From an uncultured Eubacteriales bacterium (lineage in GTDB: Bacteria > Bacillota > Clostridia > Lachnospirales > Lachnospiraceae): a stretch of 42,384 nucleotides of DNA. Below the pieces are notes generated by a model. The model saw only the letters and a list, made by a program, of their open reading frames with translations, ran no database searches and was not told the DNA's origin. The translations under genes were made by a program, and so were the position numbers. This document shows positions 26,995 through 31,332 of this stretch, piece by piece (position 1 is the first letter of the stretch; each line of letters opens with the position of its first letter). The stretch spans positions 1 through 42,384 of the forward strand of contig CASFBR010000153.1 in the NCBI GenBank assembly GCA_949292795.1, in the 5' to 3' direction.

Positions 26995-27993
26995 TTATGG
27001 AGCAATGGCTTTTTTTACACGGATGTCCTCGCCGAGCACGGGAAGGATGGTATAGTCGCTGACAATGCGCGAAAAAATACGTTCGCTGTATTCGGTCTGA
27101 AGCTGCTCCACGGACATATTCGTGGAAATGATCGTCGATTTTTTGCAAAGGAGCCGTTCATTAATGCACAGGAACAGCTGGGAAGTAATAAAGCTGTTAT
27201 TTAACTCCGTGCCAAGATCATCAATGATGAGCAGGTCGCAGTCCAGGATGTAGCTAAACATATTTTCAGCGGTATCGTCATCGTCATTTTTTCCAAACGT
27301 ATTATTTTCAAGAATATCCACAAGGCCGAAGGCTGTCAGGTAGATGACCGTATATCCCTTGTTCAGAAGCTCCCGGGCAATGCAGTTGGTGAGAAATGTT
27401 TTGCCGACGCCGGTATTGCCGCAAAACAAAAGATTTTCACTGTTCTCGCTGAATGTATCGATGAAATGATGGCATTGTTCCACGATCTTGAGGATATTTT
27501 CTCTGGGGCTGATGCCAAGACGCGCATCCTTTTCATCGGAATAATAGCTGATCTTAAATGTATCAAAATTTTCTTCACTGAGCCGCTCGCGGATATTGGA
27601 CTGAGCATAGACAAGATCCACGACAGCCTGCATAAAGCAATGGCATTTTTTTGCGCCTATAAATCCGGTATCCTTGCAGTCCGGACAGTGATAGTGTGGC
27701 TTAAGATAATCGGCAACGTATCCGTTGCTTTGTAAAAGCGCGGCCTTTTCATCATTAAGCTGCTTCATAGCCGTTTTAAAGGCTTTAAGCTGTTCAGCTG
27801 CGGCTCCCTTTTTTAAGACCGCGCTGCGGGCGCAATCGGCAGCTGTCCGGGCAATCTGCTCATCGATTTCCCGGATTTTTGGCACTGAGGAATAGACCTC
27901 CTGGCGGCGCTGCTCAAGGCGTCGGTTATTGTCGAACTGGAGCTGGTCATATCTGCGTAAAATGGCGTTATACTGTGAATTTTTCAGGGGCAT
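26995..27993 (-). CDS. dnaC: DnaC/DnaI-type replicative helicase loader (AAA+ ATPase)
   Basis: Loads the replicative helicase onto DNA at origins and restarting forks. It has an N-terminal helicase-interacting region with a zinc-binding pattern (HCPDCKDTGFIGAKKCHC). The AAA+ core shows Walker A (GNTGVGKTFL), Walker B (LLIIDDLGTE), a sensor region (STNMSVEQL) and the arginine-finger segment (YSERIFSRI). 332 residues, close to Bacillus DnaI and other Firmicute loaders. GGAGGG lies 8 bases before the ATG. The start overlaps the end of the DnaD-like gene by 10 bases, so the two are coupled. Naming dnaC or dnaI is a matter of convention. Confidence 0.93.
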   Translation of the reverse strand: MPLKNSQYNAILRRYDQLQFDNNRRLEQRRQEVYSSVPKIREIDEQIARTAADCARSAVLKKGAAAEQLKAFKTAMKQLNDEKAALLQSNGYVADYLKPHYHCPDCKDTGFIGAKKCHCFMQAVVDLVYAQSNIRERLSEENFDTFKISYYSDEKDARLGISPRENILKIVEQCHHFIDTFSENSENLLFCGNTGVGKTFLTNCIARELLNKGYTVIYLTAFGLVDILENNTFGKNDDDDTAENMFSYILDCDLLIIDDLGTELNNSFITSQLFLCINERLLCKKSTIISTNMSVEQLQTEYSERIFSRIVSDYTILPVLGEDIRVKKAIAP

Positions 27994-29516
27994 GACGGCT
28001 TCCCTCCATCGGTTTTATTTTCGCTTTTATTTAGTGATTTTTTAAAAAGTGCCTGTTCAAGCTTTCCATAGTCATAAGAGCGCTGCTCAAAATTGTGAAA
28101 CTTGTTTGTGCTGCGTGGGCGCTGGCTGCCCAGGACATTTGTTCCGGCGTAAGCACCGGACTTTCCGGCCGGTGCGCTGCCAGCGGGCTTTCCAGCCGGT
28201 GCGTTGCCAGCGGACTTTCCGGCCGATACGCTGCCGGCGGACGGATAGCTGCCCGGTGCGGCTTTTGCGGAAGGCGCGCCGGTACTCTGGGCGGCCTGCT
28301 TTTTCCGGGCGTGGATTTCGTCCAGCCTGCGCACATCATCCAGACTTCCCACCTTATTTTCATACCAGCCCTTCAGGATAGACTGTGCATAGGAAAAGCT
28401 GGGGGCATGGGTAGCTTCAATGGTTCTTTTACATGCTTCAAGGATGATTGGCATCGGAAATCCGTATTCCCGCGTCCAGCGGCGGATATGCTCCATTTCC
28501 GAGGGGGCCGGGTTGCGGTTGGTGATGCCAAAGGCTTTGAGGATGTCGAAGCATGTCTTATTATAGTAGGTTGACCGGGCGCGGGCCTTGGCCACCGTAT
28601 CGATGCCGTCTCTGGCCCAGGCCAGGGCGGTCTGTTCAATGTAGTGTATACTGTAATGATTATTTGATACACAATATTCAAAGAGATATTCGATCAGCTC
28701 GGAGGAAAAGCCGAGCCCCTCTCCGAAGTAGACGATCTTATTGACATCGGTGGGCCCAAGCGGCTTGCCAAGATACTGTTCAATGACAAAAAAGAGCTGA
28801 TCATCATTGACTTTTTTAAAATGCTCCATCTGTGCGGCTGTGTAGGCCGGTGTCCCGTTATACATATTTGGCTTTTGGGGGACGGCTGCCGGGCCGGCCT
28901 GTAAGGCCGCCGCATCCGGCACAGAGGCTGAACCCGCCGCAGCGCCTGCCTGGGAGCCGGAAGATACCGCGGAGAAGGGGGCTGCTCCCGGCGCGGAGCC
29001 TGATTGGGCGCCGGAAGATACCGTAGAGAAGGAGCCTGAACCCGCCGCGGAGCCTGATTGAGCGCCGGAAGATACCGCGGAGAAGGAGGATGAACCCGCC
29101 GCGGCGCCTGCCTGGGCGCCGGAGGGCAGCGCAGATGAGCGGTTTGCGGCAGCGGCCCAGGTCGCAGCCGCTGCCTGAGCGGGCAGCGGCACCGGCGCGG
29201 CTGCGCTTTGGGAGTGCTTTTGGGGAAGCGGGAGCAGCTGGATGCCCAGGAGCGTGTTTCCTTCAAAGCGAAGCGCCATAAGTCCCTCGCGCTCCCAGTA
29301 TTTCAGCGCGCGGAGAATGTCGTTTTCGGTCATACAAAATGTATCAGCGGCGCTGGCTAAGCTGACGCCGGACGCCGGACATGTACAGTAGCGGAGAAAA
29401 TAAAGATAGACCTTGACAAATTCACCGCTGGCCTTTGGCATATAGTAATCAAGAAATTCATTGGAAAGGATGGTCACCGCCGTATCCGGTGCCCCGAAAA
29501 GTGTCAGTGTATTCAT
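27984..29516 (-). CDS. DnaD-domain replication initiation protein with two repeat linkers
   Basis: The N-terminal 100 residues are a winged-helix DnaD/DnaB-type domain (LSNEFLDYYMPKASGEFVKV, MTENDILRALKYWEREGL). The C-terminal DnaD domain (about 275-410: FVIEQYLGKPLGPTDVNKIV, HYIEQTALAWARDGI, YAQSILKGWYENKVGSL) binds DNA. They are separated by about 150 residues of Ala/Ser/Gly-rich sequence with four 18-residue repeats, and the tail carries 9-residue AGK-type repeats. 510 residues, far longer than Bacillus DnaD (about 230) because of these linkers. The ATG at 29516 has AGGGGA nearby. Located with dnaC as in helicase-loading operons, it probably recruits or remodels DNA for helicase loading. 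Confidence 0.87.
   Translation of the reverse strand: MNTLTLFGAPDTAVTILSNEFLDYYMPKASGEFVKVYLYFLRYCTCPASGVSLASAADTFCMTENDILRALKYWEREGLMALRFEGNTLLGIQLLPLPQKHSQSAAAPVPLPAQAAAATWAAAANRSSALPSGAQAGAAAGSSSFSAVSSGAQSGSAAGSGSFSTVSSGAQSGSAPGAAPFSAVSSGSQAGAAAGSASVPDAAALQAGPAAVPQKPNMYNGTPAYTAAQMEHFKKVNDDQLFFVIEQYLGKPLGPTDVNKIVYFGEGLGFSSELIEYLFEYCVSNNHYSIHYIEQTALAWARDGIDTVAKARARSTYYNKTCFDILKAFGITNRNPAPSEMEHIRRWTREYGFPMPIILEACKRTIEATHAPSFSYAQSILKGWYENKVGSLDDVRRLDEIHARKKQAAQSTGAPSAKAAPGSYPSAGSVSAGKSAGNAPAGKPAGSAPAGKSGAYAGTNVLGSQRPRSTNKFHNFEQRSYDYGKLEQALFKKSLNKSENKTDGGKPSCP
28157..28237 (-). repeat. In-frame 27-bp tandem repeat, three units
   Basis: Units at 28157, 28184 and 28211 encode the 9-residue AGKSAGNAP-type motif in the C-terminal tail of the DnaD-like protein. 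The units differ at a few positions each. Confidence 0.85.
28929..29144 (-). repeat. In-frame 54-bp tandem repeat, about four units
   Basis: A GCCGG landmark recurs at 28956, 29010, 29064 and 29118, exactly 54 bases apart. Units encode the 18-residue SGAQSGSAAGSGSFSTVS-type motif in the linker between the two DnaD domains. Confidence 0.85.
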
Positions 29517-29550: not shown

Positions 29551-29621
29551 AGCCCGCCGGCGTTTTTGCCGTGAGCTGTGCGCCTTTGCCGGATAGGAGG
29601 GAAGAATGCTCTCCTATCCGG
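29551..29621 (-). other. Two hairpins in the leader of the dnaD-like operon
   Basis: A perfect 11-bp inverted repeat (CCGGATAGGAG at 29589-29599 with CTCCTATCCGG at 29611-29621) lies just after the predicted transcription start. A second stem (GCACAGC with GCTGTGC, and CGGC/GCCG within) follows nearer the gene. No T tract follows on the minus strand, so this is more likely an RNA-stability or regulatory structure than a terminator. Confidence 0.5.
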
Positions 29622-29635
29622 ATTATACTGACGAT

Positions 29636-29644
29636 AGTATAGCA
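29636..29644 (-). promoter_or_regulatory. Extended -10 promoter of the dnaD-like/dnaC operon
   Basis: On the minus strand TGC precedes TATACT (29641-29636), an extended -10. No clear -35 exists. It lies 58 bases downstream of the triple DnaA-box array, so DnaA bound there could act on it. Confidence 0.5.
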
Positions 29645-29701
29645 CATAACCGAAAAAAAGAGAATAGGAGCGGCCGGAAGGTGGATTGTGCATGACTTTT
29701 T

Positions 29702-29728
29702 TGTGGATAATGTGGATAATGTGGATAA
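29702..29728 (+). promoter_or_regulatory. Three tandem perfect DnaA boxes
   Basis: TGTGGATAA (the complement of the consensus TTATCCACA) occurs at 29702-29710, 29711-29719 and 29720-29728, head to tail without spacers, upstream of the dnaD-like/dnaC promoter. Confidence 0.88.
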
Positions 29729-29829
29729 ATAGTGGACATAATAAGTCGGATATATTGCGGCAGACGTTGTAAAATGGGGAAAAACAGCAGATTATGACGA
29801 CAGGTTTCGGATTTGTTATGTAAATGAAA

Positions 29830-29886
29830 ATATCCACAAATTTATAAACGTTTTATTGTTTATAAATTTGTGGATAATGTGGATAA
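29830..29886. promoter_or_regulatory. Second DnaA-box group: two perfect boxes and one inverted near-match
   Basis: TGTGGATAA lies at 29869-29877 and 29878-29886, tandem without spacer. ATATCCACA (8 of 9) lies inverted at 29830-29838. The last box ends one base before the murC stop codon. With the triple array this makes six sites in 185 bases. Confidence 0.82.
29832..29875 (-). terminator. Long AT-rich hairpin, probable terminator of murC
   Basis: A perfect 18-bp stem (29832-29849 with 29858-29875) with an 8-base loop, 11 bases past the murC stop; on the minus strand it is followed by ATTTTCATTT. The stem includes parts of two DnaA boxes, so terminator and DnaA site overlap. Confidence 0.65.
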
Positions 29887-31266
29887 CTAGGACTGAATCA
29901 GGTTTTCTCCAATATTTACAACGTCTCCGGCACCCATAGTTATCAACAAATCGCCGTGGGTACAATTTTTTTGAAGAAAATCCTCGATTTCTGCAAATGA
30001 TGGAAAATACCAGACATCCTTGCCGGCCTGTGCGAGCAGTCTCTGGATGTCTTTGGAATGAATGTCGCCAGGGTCTGTCTCCCTGGCCGGGAAAATATCT
30101 GCCAGCACAATTTTGTCTGCCAGGCTCAGCGCCTTTGCAAAGTCGTTTAAGAAGGCTTTTGTGCGGGTGTAGGTGTGAGGCTGGAATACGCACCAGAGTG
30201 TCTTATGGGGACATTTCTGGGCGGTTGTCAGTGTGGCGGCAATCTCTGTCGGGTGATGGGCATAGTCATCAATGACGGTAGTGCCGTTAAAGCTGCCCTT
30301 GTATTCAAAGCGCCGGTCCGTGCCGTCATAATTTAAAAGCCCCTGCTTAATATCTTCAAGAGAAAAGCCCATGGTCACGGCGGCAGCGATGGCGGCAAGG
30401 GCATTGGTGATGTTGTGCATGCCGGTGACATTTAAAGAAATCCGGCCGATCTGTTCGCCGCGGATATTTAAGTCAAAGCTGCCGTTGGCCCGGTCGTCAA
30501 AGGTGATATGACTGGCCGAAAAATCATTGGACGGATCAAGGCCGAAGGTAATGACCCTGCAGGCCAGTCCATCGGTGATCTCTGTGTAATGGTCGATCGC
30601 TCCGTGAATGATCAGTGTTCCGTCTGCGGGAAGCCTGCGGGCAAACTCCCGGAAAGAATGACGGATGTCATAAATATCTTTGAAAAAGTCCAGATGATCT
30701 TCTTCGATATTAAGGATAACCTCCATCTTCGGATGAAATTTTAAGAAGCTGTTCGTATATTCACAGGCTTCTGCGACAAAATAGGAGGACTGTCCGATGC
30801 GGATATTGCCGTGGATGGCTTTTAAAATACCGCCAACAGAAATCGTCGGATCACATTTGGCCTCAAGCATGATCTGTGAGATCATTGATGTCGTTGTTGT
30901 TTTTCCGTGGGTTCCGGCAACCGCCACAGAATTTTCATAGTGGCGCATGATCTGGCCGAGAAGCTCTGCCCGGTCCATCATCGGAATATTGCGGGCCTTT
31001 GCGGCGATAAATTCCGGGTTGTCGGGATGGATAGCGGCAGTATAAACGACCAGATCGATCTGATCGGTGATATTTTCGGCGCACTGTCCGTAATGGATGA
31101 CAACGCCCTGAGCTTCAAGATGCCGGGTGATTGCGCTGGAATGGCTGTCAGAGCCGGTAATGATAAAACCGCGGTCCAGAAGGATTTCAGCAAGGCCGCT
31201 CATACTGATGCCGCCGATACCCATAAAATGAACGCGGATCGGTTCGTCAAAATTTAACTGATACAT
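29887..31266 (-). CDS. murC: UDP-N-acetylmuramate--L-alanine ligase
   Basis: Adds L-alanine to UDP-MurNAc, the first amino acid of the peptidoglycan stem, in the cytoplasm. The N-terminal Rossmann-like domain starts VHFMGIGGISMSGLAEIL; the ATP loop GTHGKTTTTSM is around residue 113. The central domain has EEDHLDFF and the C-terminal domain has DDYAHHPTE and QPHTYTRT. 459 residues from the ATG at 31266. The upstream extension to 31317 has no homology. The binding site is weak (AGGA, 9 bases away). It is monocistronic, far from the usual mur cluster, next to replication genes. Confidence 0.96.
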   Translation of the reverse strand: MYQLNFDEPIRVHFMGIGGISMSGLAEILLDRGFIITGSDSHSSAITRHLEAQGVVIHYGQCAENITDQIDLVVYTAAIHPDNPEFIAAKARNIPMMDRAELLGQIMRHYENSVAVAGTHGKTTTTSMISQIMLEAKCDPTISVGGILKAIHGNIRIGQSSYFVAEACEYTNSFLKFHPKMEVILNIEEDHLDFFKDIYDIRHSFREFARRLPADGTLIIHGAIDHYTEITDGLACRVITFGLDPSNDFSASHITFDDRANGSFDLNIRGEQIGRISLNVTGMHNITNALAAIAAAVTMGFSLEDIKQGLLNYDGTDRRFEYKGSFNGTTVIDDYAHHPTEIAATLTTAQKCPHKTLWCVFQPHTYTRTKAFLNDFAKALSLADKIVLADIFPARETDPGDIHSKDIQRLLAQAGKDVWYFPSFAEIEDFLQKNCTHGDLLITMGAGDVVNIGENLIQS

Positions 31267-31332
31267 AATTACACATCCTGTTCTGTTCCTGTGAAAGCCC
31301 CGCAGGTGCGGAGCCACTATTTAGCTACATCC

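Follow-up and report, generated by a model that had tools for sequence, protein, structure and literature searches.

Both the action of DnaA as a transcription factor and the occurrence of DnaA-box clusters are already known. The closest described systems include the B. subtilis clusters, groups of 9-mers away from oriC, several of them upstream of promoters, with DnaA-regulated examples at sda, ywlC, ywcI, yydA, trmE and gcp (PMC4447404). In that report sda is activated and the others are apparently repressed. Unlike the locus described here, the named peaks do not lie at a helicase-loader operon, the words murC and yvyD (hpf) are absent from the main text, and promoter phasing does not come up in the portions of the report drawn on here (PMC4447404). 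In the Caulobacter DnaA regulon, predicted DnaA boxes are likewise found upstream of dnaA-responsive replisome genes, namely the dnaB helicase gene and dnaQ; however, it is the helicase itself rather than its loader that is controlled, the group is very distant, and the sections of the review used here describe no spacing (PMC8203912). The datA and DARS elements of E. coli are also non-coding DnaA-box loci outside oriC, but they act on the nucleotide state of DnaA together with IHF or Fis, and the corresponding part of a second review does not mention promoter phasing (PMC5295017).

A likeness of a different kind is offered by class-I CRP sites, which are positioned at -61.5, -71.5, -82.5 and -92.5, that is, upstream of the promoter at whole-turn steps, and from which activation proceeds through polymerase contact, according to the part of the source consulted (PMC11894529). 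The protein is a different one, and for the DnaA array at our locus polymerase contact is proposed. As for DnaA itself, it activates nrdAB by stabilising polymerase and may contact the polymerase beta subunit at ori-lambda, according to the sections of the review used here (PMC8203912). The share of the open-access literature that we searched yielded no DnaA site at a Firmicutes helicase-loader operon and no phasing of this kind.

The window, by which we mean the entire 42,384-nucleotide stretch that was analysed, comes from an uncultured bacterium of the Lachnospiraceae and contains five perfect copies of TTATCCACA, a 9-mer that equals the DnaA-box consensus. All five lie on the minus strand (at 29702, 29711, 29720, 29869 and 29878, 9 bp each), and an inverted 8-of-9 box, ATATCCACA, occupies positions 29830-29838 of the plus strand. 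The original prediction of five perfect boxes and one inverted box at these positions was therefore accurate, and their number is far above chance, with 5 perfect boxes in the window as compared to 0.21 expected and none of 100 shuffles yielding 5. The boxes are contiguous within each of two sets. Set A consists of A1 (29878-29886, minus strand), directly 3′ of the murC stop codon, and A2 (29869-29877, minus strand); set B consists of B1 (29720-29728), B2 (29711-29719) and B3 (29702-29710), all on the minus strand. Several near-consensus 9-mers are thus gathered within a few hundred base pairs, as in known DnaA-box clusters outside oriC. Across the window's own assembly (2.89 Mb, 171 contigs) there are 89 perfect boxes as compared to 8 matches to the reversed pattern, and exact head-to-tail box doublets occur in only three places: the murC-dnaD locus, the dnaA region (C161:18329) and a site near hpf (C25:1372). 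The dnaA and dnaN genes sit together on contig C161, away from the cluster, in keeping with the original decision not to call the locus oriC for want of these genes in the window.

Three minus-strand genes frame the element, within a four-gene minus-strand group that has plus-strand genes on both sides. These are murC (UDP-N-acetylmuramate--L-alanine ligase, 29887-31317), a dnaD-like gene of 510 amino acids with two DnaB_2/DnaD domains (PF07261, TIGR01446; 27984-29516) and, overlapping the end of the latter, a gene for a 332-amino-acid ATPase that resembles the DnaC/DnaI helicase loaders (26995-27993). The spacer between murC and the dnaD-like gene measures 370 bp. The loader role of the AAA protein rests on resemblance and position, since the DnaC and DnaI models match it below their cut-offs and its only curated NCBIfam match above cut-off is 'ATP-binding protein' (NF005304). 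Within the dnaD-like gene, near-repeated units can be seen by eye in the stretch that precedes the first DnaB_2 domain (window 29000-29240). The dnaD leader also contains an inverted repeat with an 11-bp stem (CCGGATAGGAG..CTCCTATCCGG, window 29589-29621); in three same-genus relatives (L007-L009) the spacers from set B to dnaD are 71-89 bp shorter and this repeat is, by eye, absent.

The original prediction had named conservation of the boxes in related genomes as one of its checks, and their absence there as a refutation; it came through this comparison well, for the element recurs 3′ of murC. We read the regions downstream of murC in 34 of 37 family genomes (murC was split or not found in G004, G023 and G036) and in 16 of 24 genomes from other families of the order. 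At least two perfect same-strand boxes were present in 23 of the 34 and 7 of the 16, while tandem set A and tandem set B were each found in 24 of the 34 and 4 of the 16. No tandem sets appeared in 200 rounds of mononucleotide shuffling applied to the 34 family regions, and the tandem boxes were kept while murC itself diverged to about 53-82% identity. A strict pattern (box-N125..155-box-box) matched 38 of 299 family genomes, with 0 matches for the reversed control; 33 new genomes from this search provided 34 loci, 33 of which had murC beside the match. These loci were picked by their boxes and are uninformative on the frequency of the element, the promoter having played no part in the choice. 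Allowing at most one mismatch, we found doublets in 48 of 61 relatives (reversed control 0 of 61) and in 49 of 99 genomes of the class, where the reversed control was positive in 2. Among the matches listed, 29 class-level doublet loci included two at murC-dnaD, both from the window's family, five near hpf and one at dnaA, and the remaining 21 matched none of four query proteins. Of 17 loci sought by PF07261 (L104-L120), neighbouring boxes on the same strand, neither with more than one mismatch, were present only in L106, L107, L114 and L119; in L107 dnaD lies 1.3 kb from murC, and the boxes stand upstream of dnaD at roughly 200 bp from the -10, a distance beyond the phased range described below.

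Conservation within the family is incomplete, as tandem set B is missing from 10 of the 34 genomes. In G013 and G020 the dnaD start lies either at the murC stop or no more than 64 bp from it, and the spacer and boxes are lost; in G033 set A still follows murC, another gene is inserted and there is no set B; and G008 and G057 contain weak versions of the element only. Two loci without tandem set B (L023 and L032) nevertheless retain the dnaD promoter, by eye. Because of these cases the control considered below appears to be dispensable in places, and DnaA control at this locus, as judged from the genomes, is not universal in the family.

Set A is closely associated with a hairpin. An inverted repeat with an 18-bp stem and a T-rich 3′ side spans 29832-29875 on the minus strand, just after the murC stop codon, the order of features expected of an intrinsic terminator, and the AT-rich palindrome of the original prediction is thus a probable murC terminator, a reading that replaces its candidacy as an unwinding element. 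The boxes do not simply flank the palindrome, since A2 overlaps its 5′ arm and the inverted box overlaps its 3′ arm. Across 91 regions, 33 of them loci chosen by box pattern, a hairpin and T-run follow murC in 65; the stem reaches at least 11 in 58, and in 62 a stretch of 10 contains at least 6 T. Set A mostly begins at offset 3-5 from the first base of the murC stop, the second set-A box overlaps the 5′ arm, and the 3′ arm has the sequence TGTGGAT, with T's after it. The hairpin interior varies among genomes and the arms still pair, while the first set-A box and the 3′ arm are 46-49 bp apart in all 50 loci for which both were found; this length constraint of the terminator may also reflect the boxes. 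Two further motifs were noticed in the neighbourhood. The motif TTTACATA(A) lies just 3′ of the terminator (window 29816-29824) and recurs in the spacers of relatives: of 32 intervals between set A and set B, 12 contain TTTACATA, as compared to 0.40 expected in shuffles. Similarly, TTCGACA, which resembles a Spo0A box and might indicate a sporulation input, occurs in 7 of 32 such intervals of relatives as compared to 0.25 expected, with no exact copy in the window. A known RNA leader was considered and set aside, as Rfam gave no hit of any kind in the window at gathering thresholds.

Downstream of set B, an extended -10 element (TGCTATACT) with the hexamer TATACT at 29636-29641 was taken as the promoter of the dnaD operon. 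It is preceded, across a 17-bp spacer, by the non-consensus -35-like hexamer TTCTCT (29659-29664), and both elements are on the minus strand. B1 begins 87 bases before the first T of the -10, and 60 bases separate B3 from that hexamer. The same architecture is found in relatives, which contain TGnTATA(A/C)T, a 17-bp spacer and TT(T/C)TC(T/A) where TTGACA would be expected. The best match to TTGACA at spacers of 16-19 had one, two, three and four mismatches in 1, 22, 31 and 6 of 60 loci, respectively, as compared to 1.3, 9.1, 25.9 and 20.9 expected from shuffles. The -35 is therefore weak, as in a class-I-type promoter, although partial rather than absent.

The position of set B relative to this promoter proved to be highly constrained. 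An extended -10 lies within 130 bp in 60 of 69 loci with a tandem set B (9 lack one), and in these 60 the number of bases between the last box and the -10 falls at 48-50 (16 loci), 58-60 (11), 67-70 (21) and 79 (7), with single loci at 81, 94 and 101, two at 87, and none at 51-57, 61-66 or 71-78. Successive spacing classes thus differ by roughly one turn of DNA, and the gaps between them are almost empty. Because two- and three-box arrays mix two series shifted by 9 bp, spacing was remeasured from the first box in 57 loci, the 60 minus three same-genus rows. This gave 76-78 (17), 85-88 (13), 96-97 (18), 66-67 (2) and 105-108 (3), with four off phase at 112, 114, 119 and 233; counted over all 60 loci, the number off phase by this measure is likewise four. 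The best period was 10.4 with R of 0.84; R was 0.83 for the last-box measure, and uniform random distances reached at most 0.44 (2000 draws, periods 8.5-12). Control distances gave lower values: set A to -10, 0.30 at period 10 and 0.53 at the best period; set B to the dnaD start, 0.28 and 0.37 (n=33); -10 to the dnaD start, 0.16 and 0.32 (n=33); and set A to set B, 0.40 and 0.72, the latter at 11.35. Set A to set B measures mostly 153-158 or 164-169 bp, within a range of 88-201. Looping between the two sets by helical phase was considered on account of the period near 11.35 and is not claimed, because independent pairs gave no support.

To extend this observation beyond the loci from which it came, spacing bins were fixed beforehand from the 60 loci and the pattern TCCACATTATCCACA-N43..73-TGnTATAmT was run over 397 family genomes. 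There were 75 matches in 71 genomes, with none of the 397 matching in the reversed control; merging of overlapping matches left 72, of which 49 are in genomes new to the analysis. These 49 are pattern matches, adjacency to dnaD being no part of the count; at least five of the new genomes (G457, G460, G461, G466, G482) are congeners of earlier ones, and some may equal loci L037-L045. Of the 49, 41 fell in the preset bins 48-50, 58-60 and 67-70, which make up 10 of 31 bins; the other 8 fell at 57 (3), 71 (4) and 72 (1), with none at 51-56, 61-66 or 73-76. On a murC tree (60 rows, quick method, four classless rows uncounted) there were at least 17 changes of spacing class as compared to a shuffled mean of 29.4, and the rows are not independent, because spacing class is clustered on the tree; some of the changes (L013, L020) concern box number rather than position. 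Of 27 non-overlapping pairs, first-box spacing differs by more than 2 bp between the members of 11, with differences of 3, 9, 9, 11, 12, 16, 19, 21, 21, 22 and 32. Nine of these differences lie no more than 2 bp from a whole multiple of 10.5, and each of the two 9s corresponds to one box width; hence the phylogeny-corrected phasing signal is modest. Set B therefore behaves as a site held on a fixed helical face, with whole-turn steps allowed, and does so more weakly in independent pairs.

We consider it probable that DnaA exerts phased control, whichever its sign, over the promoter of the dnaD-like/dnaC-like operon. The original prediction had offered either DnaA control of the loader operon or titration by it; conservation of the element and the phasing of set B to the dnaD promoter strengthen the former, whereas titration, still a lesser contender, does not predict phasing. 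DnaA would assemble as a short array on the tandem boxes of set B and, so bound, would touch RNA polymerase from a fixed helix face at the extended -10 promoter. Contact with polymerase is suggested by the fact that the boxes hold one face of the promoter through repeated whole-turn shifts, and the phasing points to such contact because neither titration nor origin models predict it. With the -10 hexamer numbered from -12 to -7, the centre of the last box would fall near -66, -76, -86 and -96, the start site being placed by the -10. Activation is the favoured sign, because these centres are near those of class-I CRP sites and because stabilisation of polymerase by DnaA, and a possible contact with it, have been described in the review introduced above. 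DnaA would then most likely activate the operon in the manner of a class-I activator, with set A and the murC terminator insulating or assisting. The operon products, a protein with two DnaD domains and a DnaC/DnaI-like ATPase, are the partners that would be expected to act right after DnaA, and the initiator would in this way set the supply of its own helicase-loading partners. DnaD of B. subtilis is reportedly an inhibitor of cooperative DNA binding by DnaA, and inhibition of this type would close a feedback loop.

Phased sites can also repress, and the same phasing data would be compatible with DnaA repressing the dnaD operon, either by trapping polymerase or through a repression loop between sets A and B, and thus with negative feedback on loader supply. 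The presence of two box sets 88-201 bp apart would suit such a loop, and in B. subtilis, as far as the consulted portion of the report goes, DnaA activates sda and appears to repress its other named direct targets (PMC4447404). The boxes are nevertheless clear of the core promoter, the -35 is of the poor kind found in activator-dependent promoters, and the set A-set B spacing is unphased in independent pairs. Repression, which forms part of the probability that we assign to phased control as a whole, is accordingly a real possibility but a minority one.

Somewhat less probable still, and in our judgement unlikely, is that the array serves as a site for DnaA titration or nucleotide exchange near the origin, as in datA/DARS or the B. 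subtilis clusters, with the proximity of dnaD being incidental. The locus does tend to be origin-proximal. In five genomes in which dnaA shares its contig, the distance is 287 kb (G073, 6.9 Mb in one contig), 277 kb (G175), 156 kb (G153), 139 kb (G008) and 47 kb (G057), a choice of cases that is biased toward short distances. Moreover, deletion of six B. subtilis clusters leads to early initiation, although the same review, in the part used here, denies these clusters a significant role in initiation (PMC5295017). Against titration, it would not predict a rigid helical spacing to the dnaD promoter, and the boxes are gone where dnaD closely follows murC (G013, G020). Only the weak element is present in two of the five genomes with a near-origin locus (G008, G057), and in three others dnaA is off the contig, which places the locus at least 206 kb (G170), 279 kb (G178) and 230 kb (G205) away.

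It is quite improbable that the TTATCCACA arrays are targets for some protein other than DnaA or that set A is mainly a feature of the terminator. The case for DnaA binding is built on sequence, and box A2 does overlap the terminator stem; but the 9-mer, which equals the DnaA-box consensus, recurs around dnaA in the same genome, and set B lies outside the hairpin.

Two lines of evidence, GC skew and the layout of the genes, led us to reject the secondary origin raised in the original prediction. When the 42,384-nucleotide stretch is divided into 20 overlapping 4-kb windows, the skew is positive in every one, so that no turn is found at the box cluster; it turns instead from about -0.15 to +0.16 around dnaA on C161. 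As dnaA and dnaN flank one side of the latter region and a YidC-type gene (60KD_IMP) the other, it is identified as oriC. Thus, although its tandem boxes adjoin AT-rich DNA, a secondary or cryptic origin at the murC-dnaD locus is extremely improbable given the uniform skew, the plus-strand genes that border the four-gene minus-strand group on either side and a palindrome that resembles a terminator; the locus tends to lie near the origin and is not the origin.

A second conserved DnaA-box cluster was observed about 190-430 bp upstream of hpf, a gene for ribosome hibernation, with its boxes pointing toward hpf and often consisting of a single box 40-50 bp ahead of a tandem pair. In the window's own genome it corresponds to the doublet at C25:1372 (L073:1372-1389), 355 bp upstream of the called hpf start. 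Adjacent box pairs are found in 19 of 30 hpf loci, and hpf is close by in 12 of 20 other doublet loci and 2.5 kb away in one (loci L134-L153 and L154-L183). Separately, the dnaA region of one genome (G019, L082) is exceptionally dense, with 29 perfect boxes in 3.6 kb as compared to 0-8 in the other 29 dnaA loci.

To our knowledge, the matching of helicase-loader supply to DnaA activity has been little studied outside model species, and the present setting is a large family of gut bacteria. If the proposed reading is correct, the spacing record of many genomes would indicate that DnaA acts on RNA polymerase from one and the same side of the helix, and an experiment that varies this spacing could separate transcriptional control from titration. 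We would tentatively go further and suggest, as a possibility that falls somewhat short of an even chance, that DnaA of the Lachnospiraceae is a class-I-type activator of its own loader operon. It would then form a conserved feed-forward switch with feedback, in which loader supply is tied to active DnaA, and the hpf cluster would extend this regulon to ribosome hibernation.
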